Below are positions 13,283 through 19,437 of a stretch of 64,000 nucleotides of DNA, piece by piece. This DNA is from Roseateles puraquae. Lineage in GTDB: Bacteria; Pseudomonadota; Gammaproteobacteria; Burkholderiales; Burkholderiaceae_C. Each line of letters starts with the position of its first letter. Position 1 is the first letter of the stretch. Under the pieces are notes generated by a model, which ran no database searches, was not told the origin of the DNA, and saw only the letters and a list, made by a program, of their open reading frames with translations. A program made the translations under genes and the position numbers. The stretch covers positions 124,001 to 188,000 of the forward strand of contig NZ_NISI01000003.1 of the NCBI RefSeq assembly GCF_002205845.1. The letters are read 5' to 3'.

Positions 13283-13696
13283 TCAGTCGCGGTCGCGGCC
13301 CTTGTCCTTGTCACGGCCGTGCCCGTGGCCGCGGCCATTGCCCTTGCCACGATCGGCGTCAGGCCCGCGGGGCGGCTCGGCGGGCTGGGCGTAGCGCGAC
13401 TGGTACCAGTCCTCCCGCACGAAGTACACCGGCACGCCGCAGGCGTCGTAGCGTGCGCAGTGCTTGGCCCAGTTCTTCTGGTGGCCGGGCGGAATGCGCA
13501 TGTACACCGGTGCGACCTGCACCGGGCGCCGCTGCACCCAGACCGGCTCGGCGAGCACGACCGGCGGCGGCGCGTTGCCGATGTCGATGCGGCCGTAGAA
13601 GCCCGGCTGCCCGACCTGGATGGACACGCCCACATCCGTCGCATGGGCGGCGACTGCCAACGGCAGCGCCACACTGAAGAGTCCCGATCGTTTCAT
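13283..13696 (-). CDS. Exported small protein with a basic Gly/His-rich tail, unknown function
   Basis: I place the start at ATG 13696 because AGGAGACAAG precedes it; an upstream ATG at 13738 overlaps the neighbouring gene and has no ribosome site. The 137-residue product has a signal peptide cleaved near AHA, then a segment of about 85 residues including PGFYGRIDIGNAPPPV, two cysteines (KHCARYDAC) and VYFVREDWYQSRY. The C-terminal 30 residues are almost entirely Asp/Lys/Arg/Gly/His. Similar short periplasmic proteins are common in Burkholderiales, but I know of no function. The cytoplasmic cyanophycinase gene stops just upstream (13735), so the two may be co-transcribed. Confidence 0.75.
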   Translation of the reverse strand: MKRSGLFSVALPLAVAAHATDVGVSIQVGQPGFYGRIDIGNAPPPVVLAEPVWVQRRPVQVAPVYMRIPPGHQKNWAKHCARYDACGVPVYFVREDWYQSRYAQPAEPPRGPDADRGKGNGRGHGHGRDKDKGRDRD

Positions 13697-13734
13697 CTTG
13701 TCTCCTGACATCGGGGCCCTGCGCGGGCCCGGGA

Positions 13735-14955
13735 TCACGAGCGTGCCACGGAAGGCACGACGTGCGGTTGCTCGGCCGTCAACGGCGTGAACAAAGGCTC
13801 GGCCACCCGCACCGGAATCACGTCCAGCCGCGCGCCGACCACGGTGTACTCCTCACAGCCGCGGGCGGCACTGTGCCAGCCCGCGAGACCGGGGCCGCGG
13901 TGCAGCCGGAACTCAAAACCGATATCGCCGGCCTCCTCGGCCCGCCCGAGCCGCGCCCGGAAGGCCAGCCCCTTGACCTCTTCGAAGGCCCCCTGCAGCA
14001 GTTGCACCATCGCCGCCAGGAAACAGCCCTCGCCCAGGATGTCCAGAAAGTAGCGCTCTGAGCGCGTCGCAGGCTCGAAGCCCGCGGCGCCAGGCTCGAT
14101 GCGGGGCTCGCGTCGCTTGTGCTCGGCCGGGGTGGTGTGGCCCGTCGCCAGGTCGTGCCGGTCACCGTGGTCGAGATAGCTCAATCGCGCGCCGCGCAGG
14201 TTGAACACGGGCAGGGCTGCGTCATGCACCGCCTCGCGCAGGTCCACCACCACCGCGCCGCTGCCTCCGATCACTTCCAGCAGGCTGCCGCGAATGACCA
14301 CGGCCGCGTTCTCGTCGACCCCCAGGCCGAGCGGGTAGCCGAGCGCACGCATGGCCGGCAGCATGCGGCCGATGCGGCCGCGCTTGAGGAAGTGCTGGTC
14401 CACCAGCAACTGCGGCGACACGAAGCCAAAGCCCCGGTCGTACTCCTGGCCAGCGCGCCACTGGCCGCGCAATACCGCGAGGTTGTCCATCGCGTCGCGA
14501 AACATGACCCGGCTCATGACGGCCGCGCCCGCACTGGTGCCTGCGATCACGCCCCCCGCCTGCGCCACCTTGCGGATGGCGGCGAGCATGGGCGTGTCCC
14601 GCCCGTCGGGCTGCAAGGTGTCGACGAGGTACTCCTGGGCGCCTCCGGAGAAGAACACGCCGCGGGACGCCGCCACGCGAGCGATCAGGGCCGGGTCGTT
14701 CAGCGTGGCCTGCAAGTCCACGCCGGCCAGGTGCGGCGCGATCGGGACCACGTCGGCCTGGGCGCCGCAGCGATTGAGCGAGGCGACGATCTGGGCCGCG
14801 ACGCGTGCGGGTTCGTAGGCCGCTGTCGGGAAAACCGCAATGCGCGACCCCGGCCCGCCGGCTTCGTCGACGATGCGCTGCCAGACGGCCTGGCTGTCGG
14901 CTTTCAGCGCACCGCCGATGACGATGACGGTGCCCGGCTGATCGGGGCTGTGCAA
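13735..14955 (-). CDS. Cyanophycinase, cytoplasmic paralogue (peptidase S51 family)
   Basis: This 406-residue protein of the S51 serine peptidase family hydrolyses cyanophycin (multi-L-arginyl-poly-aspartate) to beta-Asp-Arg dipeptides. The nucleophile motif GTSAGA gives Ser141, LLVDQHFLKRGRIGR gives His188 and LGVDENAA gives Glu215, the residues expected for the cyanophycinase triad. There is no signal peptide. Translation must begin at TTG 14955, because the frame is closed a few codons upstream and the conserved core starts at residue 9. A C-terminal region of about 170 residues is shared with the exported paralogue encoded upstream at 15083-16576. A terminator-like hairpin separates the two genes, so this one may have its own promoter. 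Confidence 0.87.
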   Translation of the reverse strand: MHSPDQPGTVIVIGGALKADSQAVWQRIVDEAGGPGSRIAVFPTAAYEPARVAAQIVASLNRCGAQADVVPIAPHLAGVDLQATLNDPALIARVAASRGVFFSGGAQEYLVDTLQPDGRDTPMLAAIRKVAQAGGVIAGTSAGAAVMSRVMFRDAMDNLAVLRGQWRAGQEYDRGFGFVSPQLLVDQHFLKRGRIGRMLPAMRALGYPLGLGVDENAAVVIRGSLLEVIGGSGAVVVDLREAVHDAALPVFNLRGARLSYLDHGDRHDLATGHTTPAEHKRREPRIEPGAAGFEPATRSERYFLDILGEGCFLAAMVQLLQGAFEEVKGLAFRARLGRAEEAGDIGFEFRLHRGPGLAGWHSAARGCEEYTVVGARLDVIPVRVAEPLFTPLTAEQPHVVPSVARS

Positions 14956-14978
14956 GATGGCGCGAGGGGCAAGTCAAA

Positions 14979-15001
14979 CGGCCTGCCATCTTGGCAGGCC
15001 G
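14979..15001 (-). terminator. Terminator between the two cyanophycinase genes
   Basis: CGGCCTGCCA and TGGCAGGCCG pair perfectly around a 3-nt loop. On the minus strand the hairpin is followed by TTTGACTTG. It lies about 80 nt after the stop of the exported cyanophycinase gene and 24 nt before the TTG start of the next gene. Confidence 0.7.
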
Positions 15002-15082
15002 CGGGAGATTTCAACAGCGGGTCGAGCCCAGGGTCTGCAACGCTTGTGACCAAACGCTGCAAGCGGCCGGCTCGCCGGTGCG

Positions 15083-16576
15083 CTACTGGCCGGTGGGTGC
15101 CGACGCTGGGGGCGCGGCAGCCGTGGCGCCGCCTCCGGCGCCGGGCGGTGCCGCCTTGGCCGGCCCGGCCCAGCCCCCGTACAGCGGCATCGGCAACCGC
15201 ACAGGCGTGATGTCCAGGTAGAGATTGGTCACCGTGAACTGCTCGCCGCCAAACTCTTCGGTGCTCCAACCGAGCGAGTCGGAGCCCTTGTAGAGGCGGA
15301 AGAGGAAGCCCAGCTCAGCCAGCGGGTCATTGGCACGCGGCAGCACGTCGAAGGCCAGGCCCTTGACCTCCTTGCGCACGCTGTCGATGAGGCGGCTCAT
15401 GGCGCCGGAGATCGTCGAGTCGCCCAGCATGTCGAGGTGGAAGACGTCGTCGGTGTAGTAGGGCTTGAAGTTGGGCGACTCGGCGTCATGCAACTCACCG
15501 CGCAGCTTGGGCGCCGAGGGCGTCGTCGAGCGGGCGCGCATGTGATAGCGGTCGCCATGCTCCAGGTAGGACAGCCGCGCGCCCTGCACGTTGAACGCGC
15601 CCAGCGTGGCGTCGGTGCGGGCTTCGGTGAGGTCGACGATCATGCAGCCGCGGTCGCCGATCACCTCGATCTCGTCACCGCGGATGATGGCGGCGGTGTT
15701 CTCGTCGACGCCCAGACCGAGCTTGTAGCCCTTGGCCATCATCAGCGGGATCATGCGGCCGAAGCGCCCGCGTTTGAGGAAGTGCTGGTCGACGAACAGA
15801 TGCGGGCCCACGAAGCCCAGGCCCCGGTCGACTTGCTTGCCATCGGCGAAACGCCCCTTGAGCACGTTGATGACGCTGGGCGCATCGCGGAACATGATGG
15901 TGCTCATGATGGCGGCCCCGGCCGACGTGCCGGCCACGACGCCCCCTTTGCGGTAGACGTCCCAGATGGCCTCCAGCATCGGCGTGCTCTGGCCACCCGG
16001 CTGCAGCACGTCGACGATGCGCTCCTGCACGCCGCCGGTGAAGAAGATGCCCTTGGCCGCCTTGACCTTGGCGATGAGGGCGGGGTCGCGCACGACCTTG
16101 TTCAGGTCGACCCACAGGAACTTGGGCGCCACCGGCAGAGCCTCGGCCACCGCACCGCGGCGCTGCAGCAGATCGACCACCTGCTTGGCGCTGGCTTCGG
16201 GATCTTCACTGGCCGTGCCGAAAACGACGAAGCGTGCGCCCTTGCCGCCCGCCAGTTGCACGATGCGCTGCCAGACCTCCTCGTTGTCTGCCTTGAGTGC
16301 GCCGCCGATCGGCACCGCATAACCGCGAATGGCCGCGGGGTCGGACTCCGGCAGGGGCTGCAAGGCGCCTGAGGGTGCCGACGCGGCGGCAGGTGCCGCC
16401 GGCCGGGCGGGCGTGGCGGCCTTCTGGCCCGTGTTGGCAGGCGGGGTGGCCGCCGCCGGACGCAGCAGTCGCAAGGCCTGCGGCGCGCTCGCCGCCGGTG
16501 CCGTCGTTGCAGGCGCGGCTTGCGCACCCATGACCATCGTCATGGCCACCACGCCGGCCCAGATCCATGCCCTCAT
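15083..16576 (-). CDS. Cyanophycinase, exported paralogue (peptidase S51 family)
   Basis: This 497-residue protein has a clear signal peptide, MRAWIWAGVVAMTMVMGAQA, then a Pro/Ala-rich linker to about residue 80, and then the S51 catalytic domain. GTSAGA gives Ser218, FVDQHFLKRGRFGR gives His265 and GVDENTA gives Glu292, so the triad is complete. Exported cyanophycinases (CphE type) let non-cyanobacteria feed on external cyanophycin. The C-terminus is again low complexity (Gly/Ala/Pro). It is divergent from a large TonB-dependent receptor gene (16744) across a 167-bp intergenic region and lies upstream of its cytoplasmic paralogue. Whether it is periplasmic or secreted further is not decided by the sequence. 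Confidence 0.88.
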   Translation of the reverse strand: MRAWIWAGVVAMTMVMGAQAAPATTAPAASAPQALRLLRPAAATPPANTGQKAATPARPAAPAAASAPSGALQPLPESDPAAIRGYAVPIGGALKADNEEVWQRIVQLAGGKGARFVVFGTASEDPEASAKQVVDLLQRRGAVAEALPVAPKFLWVDLNKVVRDPALIAKVKAAKGIFFTGGVQERIVDVLQPGGQSTPMLEAIWDVYRKGGVVAGTSAGAAIMSTIMFRDAPSVINVLKGRFADGKQVDRGLGFVGPHLFVDQHFLKRGRFGRMIPLMMAKGYKLGLGVDENTAAIIRGDEIEVIGDRGCMIVDLTEARTDATLGAFNVQGARLSYLEHGDRYHMRARSTTPSAPKLRGELHDAESPNFKPYYTDDVFHLDMLGDSTISGAMSRLIDSVRKEVKGLAFDVLPRANDPLAELGFLFRLYKGSDSLGWSTEEFGGEQFTVTNLYLDITPVRLPMPLYGGWAGPAKAAPPGAGGGATAAAPPASAPTGQ

Positions 16577-16743
16577 GCCAACAACCCTCCTTGGTCAGAG
16601 CACACATCATGACAGAGGCCGAATGACGTTTTGCCCCTAATCCTGAGAACGCGGGCGTGGCGCGCGCGAGACGAATCCACGGCTGGACACAGGTCAGCTG
16701 CCGGCACCGTGCCTAGACTGGCGCGCATCAAGGAGAGCTGCCC

Positions 16744-19437
16744 ATGAAGACCCCCTGCCCTTCCCGCCTCGCCACGGCCGCCGCCCTGCTCGCGCTGAGC
16801 TGTGCCACGCAGGCCCAGACCTCACTGGAGCGGGTGGAAGTCACCGGCACCGCCATCAAGCGCATCGATGGCGAGACGGCGTTGCCGGTGCAGGTCATCA
16901 CGCGGGCCGAGATCGACAAGGCCGGCGTCACGACCGCCGCCGAATTGGTCGCTCGCCTGAGCGCGAGCGCCAACAACCTGACCGACGGCGGCAGCGTGGG
17001 CTATGGCGGCTTTCGGTCGCAGATGGGCCTGAACGCGGCCAACCTGCGCGGCCTGGGCGTGTCCTCGACGCTGGTGCTGCTCAACGGTCGGCGCATGGCC
17101 AACTTCGCGTCGCCCGGCGATGCGGCGGGCGTCGACCTCAACAGCATCCCGGCCGCCGCCATCCAGCGCGTGGAGGTGCTGCTGGACGGCGCCTCGTCGC
17201 TGTATGGCTCTGACGCCATCGGCGGCGTCATCAACTTCATCACCCGCAAGGACTTCAGCGGCGTCGACCTCAACGCGATGGCCGGCAACACGACCGAAGG
17301 CCATGGCGCGGACAAGCGCTCGGCGACCGTGTCGGCCGGCCTTGGCGACTTCGGCCGCGACGGCTTCAACATCTTCGGGGTGCTGGACTTCCAGAAGACC
17401 AAGAGCCTGAACGCCTCCAAGCGCCAGTTCATCAAGGACCTGGACATCCCGGGCCGGCTGCCGGACCTGCTGTCCAGCGCCACCTTCCCCGGCAACATCC
17501 GGCTGTCGCGCTCGCAGTTCAACACGCTCGCCGATGAGGGCTACTCCAGCAACGGCAGCACCGTCATCGATTCGCGCACGGTCAACCCCGCCGCGGCCAC
17601 CGGTTGCAACCCACCGGCCAACCTTTACCTGCCGGACGGCATCGGTGGCGCCGACGGCTGCACCTTCGACTACATGCGCGACATCGAGCTGTACCCGAAG
17701 TCCACCAAGAGCAGCGCCTTCACCCGCGGCATCCTGAACCTGGGTGGCGGTCACCAGCTCTTCGCTGAAGCCTCGGTCGCCCGCGCGCGCACCTTCTATA
17801 CCGGCACGCCGAACCGCGTGGATGCCGACATTGATGTGTCCCTCGTGCCGGCCTTCAAGGGCAGTGCCTTGAACAGCCTGCCGGCCGACGATGAAGACCG
17901 CATCATCACCGTGCGCACCCGCCTGGGCGAGGCTGGCCTGCGCACCAGCGAGCTGGTGGCCAACAGCACGCGCTTCGTCATCGGCACGCAGGGCATCGTC
18001 GCCGGCTGGGACTACGAATGGGCGCTGAACCACAGCACCAGCAAAGTCTCAGACCGCGACTACCAGGGCTACCTGAACGAACAGATGATCCGTGACGGCT
18101 TCAGTGCCGGCACCATCAGCCCCTTCAAGACCTCGGACGCCAAGGGCCGGGCCTTGTACGAGGCGGCACAGATCCGTGGCGAGGTGCGCCGTGCGACCGG
18201 CACCATGGACAGCATCGACTTCAAGGCCTCCAAGGCCCTGATGGCCCTGGCCGGCGGCGACCTGGCCGTGGCGGTCGGTGGCGAGTACCGCCGCGAGAAG
18301 CAGGACTACCACCAGTCCGACGCCCTCAAGCAGGACCTCATCCTCGGCGAGACCTCGCAGGGCCCCGACTCCGATTTCGGCAAGTCGCGCAAGGTCGGTG
18401 CCGTCTTCGGTGAACTGGTGGCGCCCCTCACCAAGCAACTGGAACTGGCTGCGGCGCTGCGCTACGAGCGCTACCAGGTCAGCGGGGGGGCGGTCAGCCC
18501 CAAGCTCGGCCTGAAGTACGTGCCCATGCCGGAGCTGCTGCTGCGCGCCTCGGTGGGCAAGGGCTTCCGCGCGCCCAGCCTGTCGGACCTGTACCGGCCG
18601 GTCACCCAGGGCAGCTCGGCCACGCTGGTCGATCCCGTCTGCCTGGCCGCCGACCCCAGCAACACCGTCACCGACTGCTCCGACATCTGGGCCACGCTCA
18701 ACTACAGCAACCCCAACCTGAAGCCCGAGAAGTCGCAGCAGTTCTCCCTCGGCCTGGTGTTCGAGCCCAAGCCGGGCGTGAGCCTGAACCTCGATTACTG
18801 GAACATCGAGAAGCGCAACCTGATCAGCACGCTGGGTGAGGACGTCATCCTGGGCAACCTCGGCAAGTACGGCCAGTACGTGATCCGCGACGAAGACGGG
18901 GTCATCGACCACATCGACCTCAAGAAGGAAAACCGCGGCAAGGAGCGCATCTCAGGCCTGGACCTGGGCGCCAAGCTCGGCGGCCTGAAGACGTCCTGGG
19001 GCGAGTTCGGCCTGCGGCTCAATGGCACGCTGACGCTGAAGTCCGAACGCCAGACGGGCGACGGCGACCCCTTCATCAGCAACCTGGGCGTGTTCATCAA
19101 CGACGGCGTCGTGCAGCGCTGGCGGCACAGCGTGTCGCTGGACTGGGAGAGCGGCCCCTTCTCGGCCACGCTGTCCAACAGTTATCTGCAGGGCTACAAC
19201 GACCAGCACATCATCGGCAAGCCCGACCGCAAGGTGGCCGCCTATTCGCTGTGGAACCTCTCCGGCGGCTGGGACGTGACCAAGGCGCTCACCCTGCGCG
19301 CCGGCGTGCAGAACCTGGCCAACACCGCGCCGCCGTTCTCGCAGCAGGCCTGGTTCTTCATCTCGGGCTACGACCCGAGCTACACCGACTCGCGCGGCCG
19401 CTTCATCTACGCGAGCGCGAAGTACACCTTCCGCTGA
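16744..19437 (+). CDS. Large TonB-dependent receptor next to the cyanophycinases
   Basis: This 897-residue outer-membrane receptor has a good ribosome site, AAGGAGAG, and a signal peptide of about 24 residues (ALSCATQAQ). The plug carries VEVTGTAIKR, ANLRGLGVSSTLVLLNGRRM and IQRVEVLLDGASSLYGSDAIGGVINFI. The barrel ends in YASAKYTFR. The plug type (AIKRIDGE, LVLLNGRRM) is that of the large oligomer or peptide receptors. Because it is divergent from two cyanophycinase genes I infer that it may import cyanophycin fragments or dipeptides, but receptors of this type also take up sugars and siderophores. Confidence 0.9.
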   Translation: MKTPCPSRLATAAALLALSCATQAQTSLERVEVTGTAIKRIDGETALPVQVITRAEIDKAGVTTAAELVARLSASANNLTDGGSVGYGGFRSQMGLNAANLRGLGVSSTLVLLNGRRMANFASPGDAAGVDLNSIPAAAIQRVEVLLDGASSLYGSDAIGGVINFITRKDFSGVDLNAMAGNTTEGHGADKRSATVSAGLGDFGRDGFNIFGVLDFQKTKSLNASKRQFIKDLDIPGRLPDLLSSATFPGNIRLSRSQFNTLADEGYSSNGSTVIDSRTVNPAAATGCNPPANLYLPDGIGGADGCTFDYMRDIELYPKSTKSSAFTRGILNLGGGHQLFAEASVARARTFYTGTPNRVDADIDVSLVPAFKGSALNSLPADDEDRIITVRTRLGEAGLRTSELVANSTRFVIGTQGIVAGWDYEWALNHSTSKVSDRDYQGYLNEQMIRDGFSAGTISPFKTSDAKGRALYEAAQIRGEVRRATGTMDSIDFKASKALMALAGGDLAVAVGGEYRREKQDYHQSDALKQDLILGETSQGPDSDFGKSRKVGAVFGELVAPLTKQLELAAALRYERYQVSGGAVSPKLGLKYVPMPELLLRASVGKGFRAPSLSDLYRPVTQGSSATLVDPVCLAADPSNTVTDCSDIWATLNYSNPNLKPEKSQQFSLGLVFEPKPGVSLNLDYWNIEKRNLISTLGEDVILGNLGKYGQYVIRDEDGVIDHIDLKKENRGKERISGLDLGAKLGGLKTSWGEFGLRLNGTLTLKSERQTGDGDPFISNLGVFINDGVVQRWRHSVSLDWESGPFSATLSNSYLQGYNDQHIIGKPDRKVAAYSLWNLSGGWDVTKALTLRAGVQNLANTAPPFSQQAWFFISGYDPSYTDSRGRFIYASAKYTFR

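Follow-up and report, generated by a model that had tools for sequence, protein, structure and literature searches.

What does a bacterium that carries a cyanophycin synthetase gene do with two tandem cyanophycinase-family genes, one for an exported and one for a non-exported enzyme, placed beside a gene for a TonB-dependent receptor? The question is raised by positions 13735-19437 of a 64,000-nucleotide stretch of DNA, hereafter the window (G000:C35:124001-188000; other contigs of the same genome are labelled C12 and C42). The nearest named relatives of this genome are found in Roseateles/Pelomonas, family Sphaerotilaceae. The locus is probably the outer-membrane/envelope part of a system for cyanophycin use, combined with a cytoplasmic cyanophycinase. 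It is filled by three genes, the coordinates of which coincide exactly with open frames, and has the following features.

13735..14955, minus strand: CYTO, a cyanophycinase-family (S51) protein of 406 residues without signal peptide, with a TTG start, Ser141/His188/Glu215 and an extra C-terminal region
14987..15023, minus strand: promoter-like block GACCCGCTG-N17-CTGCCAAGATG upstream of CYTO, overlapping a dyad at 14980-15000
15083..16576, minus strand: SECR, an exported cyanophycinase-family (S51) enzyme of 497 residues, with an ATG start and Ser218/His265/Glu292
16325..16516, minus strand: Pro/Ala-rich linker of SECR (residues 21-84), 56% Ala and Pro
16517..16576, minus strand: signal peptide of SECR (residues 1-20), with cleavage after AQA judged by eye and similar starts in relatives
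16577..16743, no strand: divergent intergenic region between SECR and the receptor gene, with blocks conserved in the rows of ten relatives
16744..19437, plus strand: TonB-dependent receptor of 897 residues, with Plug and beta-barrel domains

An earlier note on this DNA had described two tandem S51 paralogues with complete Ser-His-Glu residues, one with a signal peptide and a Pro/Ala linker and the other signal-less with a TTG start, and a large divergent TonB receptor. This layout is borne out. SECR and CYTO are 51% identical over 382 residues. Both score above the cut-offs of the TIGR02069 cyanophycinase model (141.6 and 135.9 bits, respectively; cut-off 126.6) and of PF03575 (S51; 40.1 and 44.1; cut-off 23.9), and both match solved cyanophycinases. 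The N-terminus of SECR reads like a signal peptide (MRAWIWAGVVAMTMVMGAQA-AP; all signal peptides were judged by eye) and is followed by the 64-residue linker, which differs in length among relatives, several Ideonella rows and Niveibacterium having a short one. Counts of relatives' loci refer to the best 80 of 126 loci (the named ones): 18 with SECR and CYTO, 40 with SECR but no CYTO, and 22 with only an enzyme of the type found on contig C42 (described below). The nine catalytic and binding positions, among them Ser-His-Glu and the binding Gln/Asp/Gln/Arg set, as listed and numbered in PMC3235067, are identical in 58/58 aligned SECR rows and 17/17 CYTO rows, and the catalytic His is preceded by Gln in every one of them. 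The TTG start is likewise present in 17/17 CYTO rows, that of the window included. Ratios of nonsynonymous to synonymous substitution rates (dN/dS) are 0.01-0.18 in SECR (11 pairs), 0.07-0.36 in CYTO (11 pairs) and 0.04-0.32 in the C42 type (6 pairs); judged by these ratios, CYTO is under purifying selection, weaker than that on SECR.

A predicted model of CYTO (predicted local distance difference test score 91.4) superposes on the Synechocystis cyanophycinase with Z 29.1 and a root-mean-square deviation of 2.1-2.2 over 254-255 residues. The Z score against a protein named pseudo-CphB, 28.9, is as high as that against the real cyanophycinase, and the comparison thus supports the predicted fold, not activity. 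CYTO has an additional C-terminal region beyond about residue 277. The part past residue 236 was barely covered by VIA-align, in which no top row extended past residue 277; this gives no evidence for a new fold there.

CYTO is closer in sequence to another exported enzyme of the genome than to its neighbour SECR. This enzyme, the third S51 protein of the genome, is encoded on contig C42 (L014:8735-9961), is exported as judged by eye and is accompanied by a divergent TonB receptor of its own; its TIGR02069 score falls just short of the cut-off (119.6 vs 126.6). The nine positions are identical throughout the 29 rows of this type, except in L095, which has Glu for one Asp, and in the truncated L035, in which seven are missing. 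Identity is 64% between CYTO and the C42 enzyme and 51% between CYTO and SECR, and the 17 CYTO rows form one clade, with support of 98 in a quick tree of 106 rows and of 100/100 in a more careful one built from 39 selected rows. This clade sits inside the exported enzymes of the same lineage. The identities and both trees rule out a tandem duplicate of SECR.

The upstream DNA agrees with the tree as to the kinship of CYTO with the C42 enzyme. A block of the form ACCCG...CTGnCAAGAT occurs at a 26-nucleotide distance in 11/17 CYTO rows and 8/10 C42-type rows, searched with slightly different patterns in the two sets. In the C42 gene of this genome, ATG follows the CTGnCAAGAT block within a few bases; in CYTO the block is followed by a short variable stretch and then by the conserved TTG. 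Together, tree and upstream DNA support CYTO as a single-origin paralogue of the exported C42 enzyme that would have undergone one loss of the signal peptide, within the Pelomonas-type lineage. A dyad, GGCCTGCC-AAGAT-GGCAGGCC (14980-15000 of the window, minus strand), encloses the promoter-like CAAGAT upstream of CYTO, and the right arm of a CAAGATG/CATCTTG inverted pair falls on the TTG start of CYTO in a number of relatives. Around CCAAGATGG, the dyad pairs in 124/153 cells in its own register and in at most 71/153 in others. Shuffling the right-hand letters among species often reaches the observed pairing at every position, least so at the outermost (101/2000), and covariation of the dyad is therefore not shown.

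The earlier note had suggested that the locus may be a scavenging system, as no cyanophycin synthetase or isoaspartyl dipeptidase was seen in the window. None is present among the ten genes scanned around the locus; the conclusion drawn from this for the genome does not hold, since cphA1 (958.8 bits; cut-off 850) and two CphZ homologues are found elsewhere in it. A genome that scavenges for lack of a synthetase is thus ruled out by cphA1, which is adjoined by a second, shorter synthetase homologue (697 bits, below 850). Regarding the dipeptide step, IaaA and IadA were both rejected: PF01112 has no match in this genome, and the check for IadA, which the earlier note had proposed along with that for cphA, gave only a partial match under the cut-off. 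The CphZ homologues, which match 8EIN over nearly the full length (E 1.1e-69 and 1e-73), could act in place of the missing enzymes. One lies beside the C42 S51 gene, together with a DcuC/YfcC-type carrier, an AraC regulator and two arginine succinyltransferase genes. The other, on C12, is located between the permease genes and the ATPase gene of a HisJQMP-like ABC importer (L096:5722-10889), a candidate for beta-Asp-Arg uptake; the two permeases of the importer match HisQ and HisM models below the cut-offs, whereas the ATPase and the binding protein were recognised by eye. The window locus is only one component of a system whose genes lie in three or more places of the genome. A fourth, remote S51 protein is encoded near the C42 genes (L014:1991-3529, plus strand; signal peptide by eye); it scores under the Pfam and TIGR02069 cut-offs and has Asp-Thr-His for Asp-Gln-His, a change reported for Pseudomonas CphE.

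Relatives show how these parts may once have been joined. Fetched flanks were partly cut by contig ends, the locus spanning at least 20.9 kb in 14/18 loci with SECR and CYTO, 27/40 with SECR only and 16/22 with the C42 type only. Within these flanks, CphZ-like genes occur in 0/18, 19/40 and 16/22 loci, and AstA in 0/18, 11/40 and 14/22, in the same order. In five loci (L033, L036, L041, L042 and L045), receptor and SECR are contiguous with a second receptor, a second enzyme, CphZ, DcuC, AraC and AstA, and the ETFQO, SDR and YceH genes that flank the window locus on its receptor side are found in 5/5 of them. CYTO stands where the second receptor and second enzyme stand in these relatives. From such contiguous clusters, the window locus looks like a piece of an ancestral cyanophycin-use cluster, left after the rest had moved, if the direction of change is read correctly. 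Similar associations occur elsewhere. For instance, the genes after SECR in Ideonella (L060) encode a solute-binding protein, two permeases and CphZ, and those after a SECR-like gene in Niveibacterium (L070; Rhodocyclales) encode CphZ, AraC, AstA, AstA and DcuC, in this order. The CphZ-like protein linked to the enzyme at L082 is 88% identical to that of this genome, and its model fits 8EIN, a structure with the title cyanophycin dipeptide hydrolase CphZ, at 38% identity and a TM score of 0.86-0.88. In other loci, the gene after SECR encodes, for example, a major facilitator superfamily (MFS) carrier (L046) or a trypsin-like protease (L051), and at L040 a DUF3426 protein is encoded there on the opposite strand. 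Pelomonas sp. Root1237 has a gene for a POT-type peptide transporter upstream of a C42-type enzyme gene. Most inner-membrane carriers near the clusters, and those in the CphZ-bearing clusters examined, are of the amino-acid or dicarboxylate type. A role of the locus in cyanophycin use is well supported by these conserved neighbours.

The synthetase is widespread in the group, cphA1 scoring over the cut-off in 40/40 relatives asked. With a profile of the three proteins at E 1e-40, the enzyme was detected in 25/150 genomes of the same family, and side-by-side matches in two of the 150, one being the genome of the window and the other that of a congener. Genomes with CYTO carry a CphZ homologue of the second type in 17/17 cases (43-50% identity, one partial) and one of the C42 type in 7/17 (76-97%). 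A short protein (open frames of 297-320 residues) gave a higher score on the cyanophycinase model in 4/20 genomes (2/8 with CYTO and 2/12 without). In the L022 genome, at G006:C11:113811-115738, a short CphB-like gene (184 bits) and an additional CphZ homologue (65% identity) are about 180 bp apart. L016 and L086, both from records titled as a Methylotenera metagenome-assembled genome, encode SECR and C42 enzymes 99% identical to those of this genome in syntenic order, and probably represent a mislabelled or contaminated assembly.

The receptor, which starts 167 bp from SECR on the opposite strand, matches the Plug (PF07715) and beta-barrel (PF00593) domains above both cut-offs and is 44% identical to the receptor at the C42 locus. 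A divergent receptor is found within 1 kb of SECR in 50/58 SECR loci, and SECR is located at the contig start in three of the eight misses; by class, the receptor is present in 15/18 loci with SECR and CYTO, 35/40 with SECR only and 16/22 with the C42 type only. The pairing is not due to chance. SECR loci are related to one another, and the 50 pairings are therefore not independent events. Matches to solved structures lie mostly in the plug region (BtuB- and FepA-type), and eight plasmid records match at up to 35.3% identity. By its neighbours, the ligand would be cyanophycin or its fragments. At L049 (8670-9569), matches to the receptor adjoining SECR are confined to three fragments (41-54% identity), and the gene is possibly decaying. 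Directly after CYTO, on the same strand (13283-13738), the window encodes a small, perhaps exported protein that is matched in 14/18 CYTO-type loci and has no Pfam or NCBIfam match at E 0.001.

From the genes, their families and linkage, and from the kinship of CYTO and its missing signal peptide, we infer substrates, localisation, direction of flow and regulation. The receptor would carry cyanophycin or fragments through the outer membrane, and SECR, exported via Sec, would degrade the polymer to beta-Asp-Arg, either in the periplasm or extracellularly. Dipeptides may cross the inner membrane through the C12 HisJQMP-like importer or the C42 DcuC/YfcC-type carrier, the genes of which are present, and a CphZ homologue would split them into Asp and Arg, with Arg possibly entering the succinyltransferase route. 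From the polymer made in the cell by CphA1, CYTO would release dipeptides, again to be split by CphZ. SECR and the receptor would most likely deal with polymer from outside, and CYTO with polymer made in the cell. A broader claim is possible, and we put it forward tentatively: in a single lineage of Roseateles/Pelomonas, an exported-type cyanophycinase would have lost its signal peptide in one event and so become cytoplasmic, kept its own promoter and turned into the internal cyanophycinase of a betaproteobacterial maker, and the paired receptors would be outer-membrane cyanophycin importers.

Several observations weigh against these proposals. The TTG of CYTO is not preceded, by eye, by a Shine-Dalgarno-like run, and CYTO evolves faster than SECR as measured by dN/dS. 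No CphZ-like gene accompanies any of the 18 CYTO-type loci in the fetched flanks. The ACCCG block was not found at the 26-nucleotide spacing in 6/17 CYTO and 2/10 C42-type rows. Two genomes, L021 (Roseateles saccharophilus) and L027 (Pelomonas aquatica), keep SECR and CYTO and have no receptor between the 4HBT gene and SECR. The best curated-model matches of the receptor are vitamin B12, heme and siderophore receptors, far under their cut-offs. The 12 relatives that lack CYTO at the locus all carry cphA1, and a short CphB-like protein is present in only two of them; not every cyanophycin maker, therefore, shows an obvious internal cyanophycinase. The best sequence match of SECR among solved structures is 7uqv, titled 'pseudo-CphB', a related protein that shares fold and motifs; fold and triad are therefore no proof of activity. 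Pseudo-CphB is reportedly inactive.

The existence of this protein is one reason to consider a different substrate for the enzymes, some other beta-aspartyl or aspartyl peptide, and a different ligand for the receptor. PepE-type peptidases share the fold as well, and receptor ligands are unreadable from sequence; however, all nine CphB positions are retained, and linkage to CphZ homologues and arginine succinyltransferases recurs in Burkholderiales and Rhodocyclales, which makes such a substrate quite improbable. CYTO might instead be a leftover from deletion or relocation of a C42-type cluster, weakly translated and drifting, with only SECR and the receptor of importance. Its position in place of the second receptor and enzyme of the five relatives would fit such a remnant, as would the bare TTG, the higher rate and a letter make-up that deviates in seven rows. 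Against this, the open frame, the TTG and the nine residues are retained in 17/17 rows of a single clade, and its dN/dS values are well under 1 and like those of the C42 type; we regard drift as improbable.

The earlier note had proposed an external or periplasmic cut, uptake of fragments and a second cut inside the cell, with CYTO acting on imported oligomers. Of this reading, the cyanophycinase family of both enzymes, the split in export, the divergent receptor and a link to cyanophycin breakdown through neighbours conserved in relatives are supported, and the receptor lies within 1 kb of SECR in most loci with the enzyme pair (15/18). The POT-type gene of Root1237 and the MFS gene of L046 make import of small peptides conceivable. 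Nevertheless, CYTO stems from the C42-type enzyme rather than from its neighbour, and L021 and L027 hold both enzymes with the receptor not in place. A second cut is rather unlikely, and not the likeliest role of CYTO, because exported cyanophycinases should already yield dipeptides, the carriers in CphZ-bearing clusters are of the amino-acid/dicarboxylate type, and the cytoplasm should make its own polymer. Clusters of cyanophycinase and isoaspartyl dipeptidase are described in PMC10206079, which also mentions a cyanophycin dipeptide hydrolase family and cites a cyanophycin utilization locus (Ben Hania et al.).

The lineage offers a clean test of how cyanophycin makers reach their own store. 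It provides a single genome with exported and non-exported enzymes of the same family and with two CphZ homologues, along with natural variants without the receptor or CYTO. According to PMC10206079, a recognisable cyanophycinase occurs in only 2.8% of 903 betaproteobacterial cphA1 genomes; if the proposal is true, CYTO would be an internal cyanophycinase in makers where such an enzyme is mostly unrecognised. No report of a cyanophycinase in Roseateles was found in the literature searched, a limited collection.

Among known enzymes, CphE of Pseudomonas alcaligenes/P. anguilliseptica is described in PMC3235067 as an extracellular protein of about 400 residues with a Sec signal peptide and Ser-His-Glu. 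By this description, SECR and the C42 enzyme share with CphE export, core length, the triad and the binding Gln/Asp/Arg set, and CYTO differs in its lack of a signal peptide. Spacing also differs, Gln-Ser and Ser-His being 35 and 53 in CphE and 34 and 47 in SECR and CYTO. CphE has Thr before His where SECR and CYTO have Gln, and SECR is therefore called CphE-like in size and export and is not filed as CphE. Plasmid records searched for a named CphE gave one distant Cytobacillus match. CphB (Synechocystis; 3EN0, 7UQW) and CYTO share fold, triad and absence of a signal peptide. However, CphB is about 27 kDa (PMC3235067), and CYTO, although signal-less, departs from that description in being extended at the C-terminus and nested among the exported enzymes from which it descends.

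The cyanophycin utilization locus, as cited in PMC10206079, joins cyanophycinase, a transporter and a dipeptide-splitting enzyme, as do the clusters of relatives. In this genome, by comparison, the parts are dispersed, cphA1 is present and the splitting enzyme is a homologue of CphZ (8EIN/8EIP) rather than IadA or IaaA, both CphZ homologues lying outside the window locus and being predicted dipeptide hydrolases. The window locus is not clustered in that manner, given that none of the 18 CYTO-type flanks has a CphZ-like gene; IaaA and IadA were searched in this genome only. The closest precedent is Citromicrobium sp. JLT1363, in which a TonB receptor lies near a cyanophycinase gene and cyanophycin was proposed as its substrate (PMC3400609). 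In the literature searched, outer-membrane cyanophycin importers have so far been proposed only from neighbourhood, as in the available text of that 2012 paper, and the receptors described here are named candidates for the uptake of a bacterial polymer. That text describes one enzyme and no exported/cytoplasmic pair, whereas the window locus has such a pair. A receptor near a cyanophycinase is thus already published, and the newest point is the relocated enzyme, CYTO.

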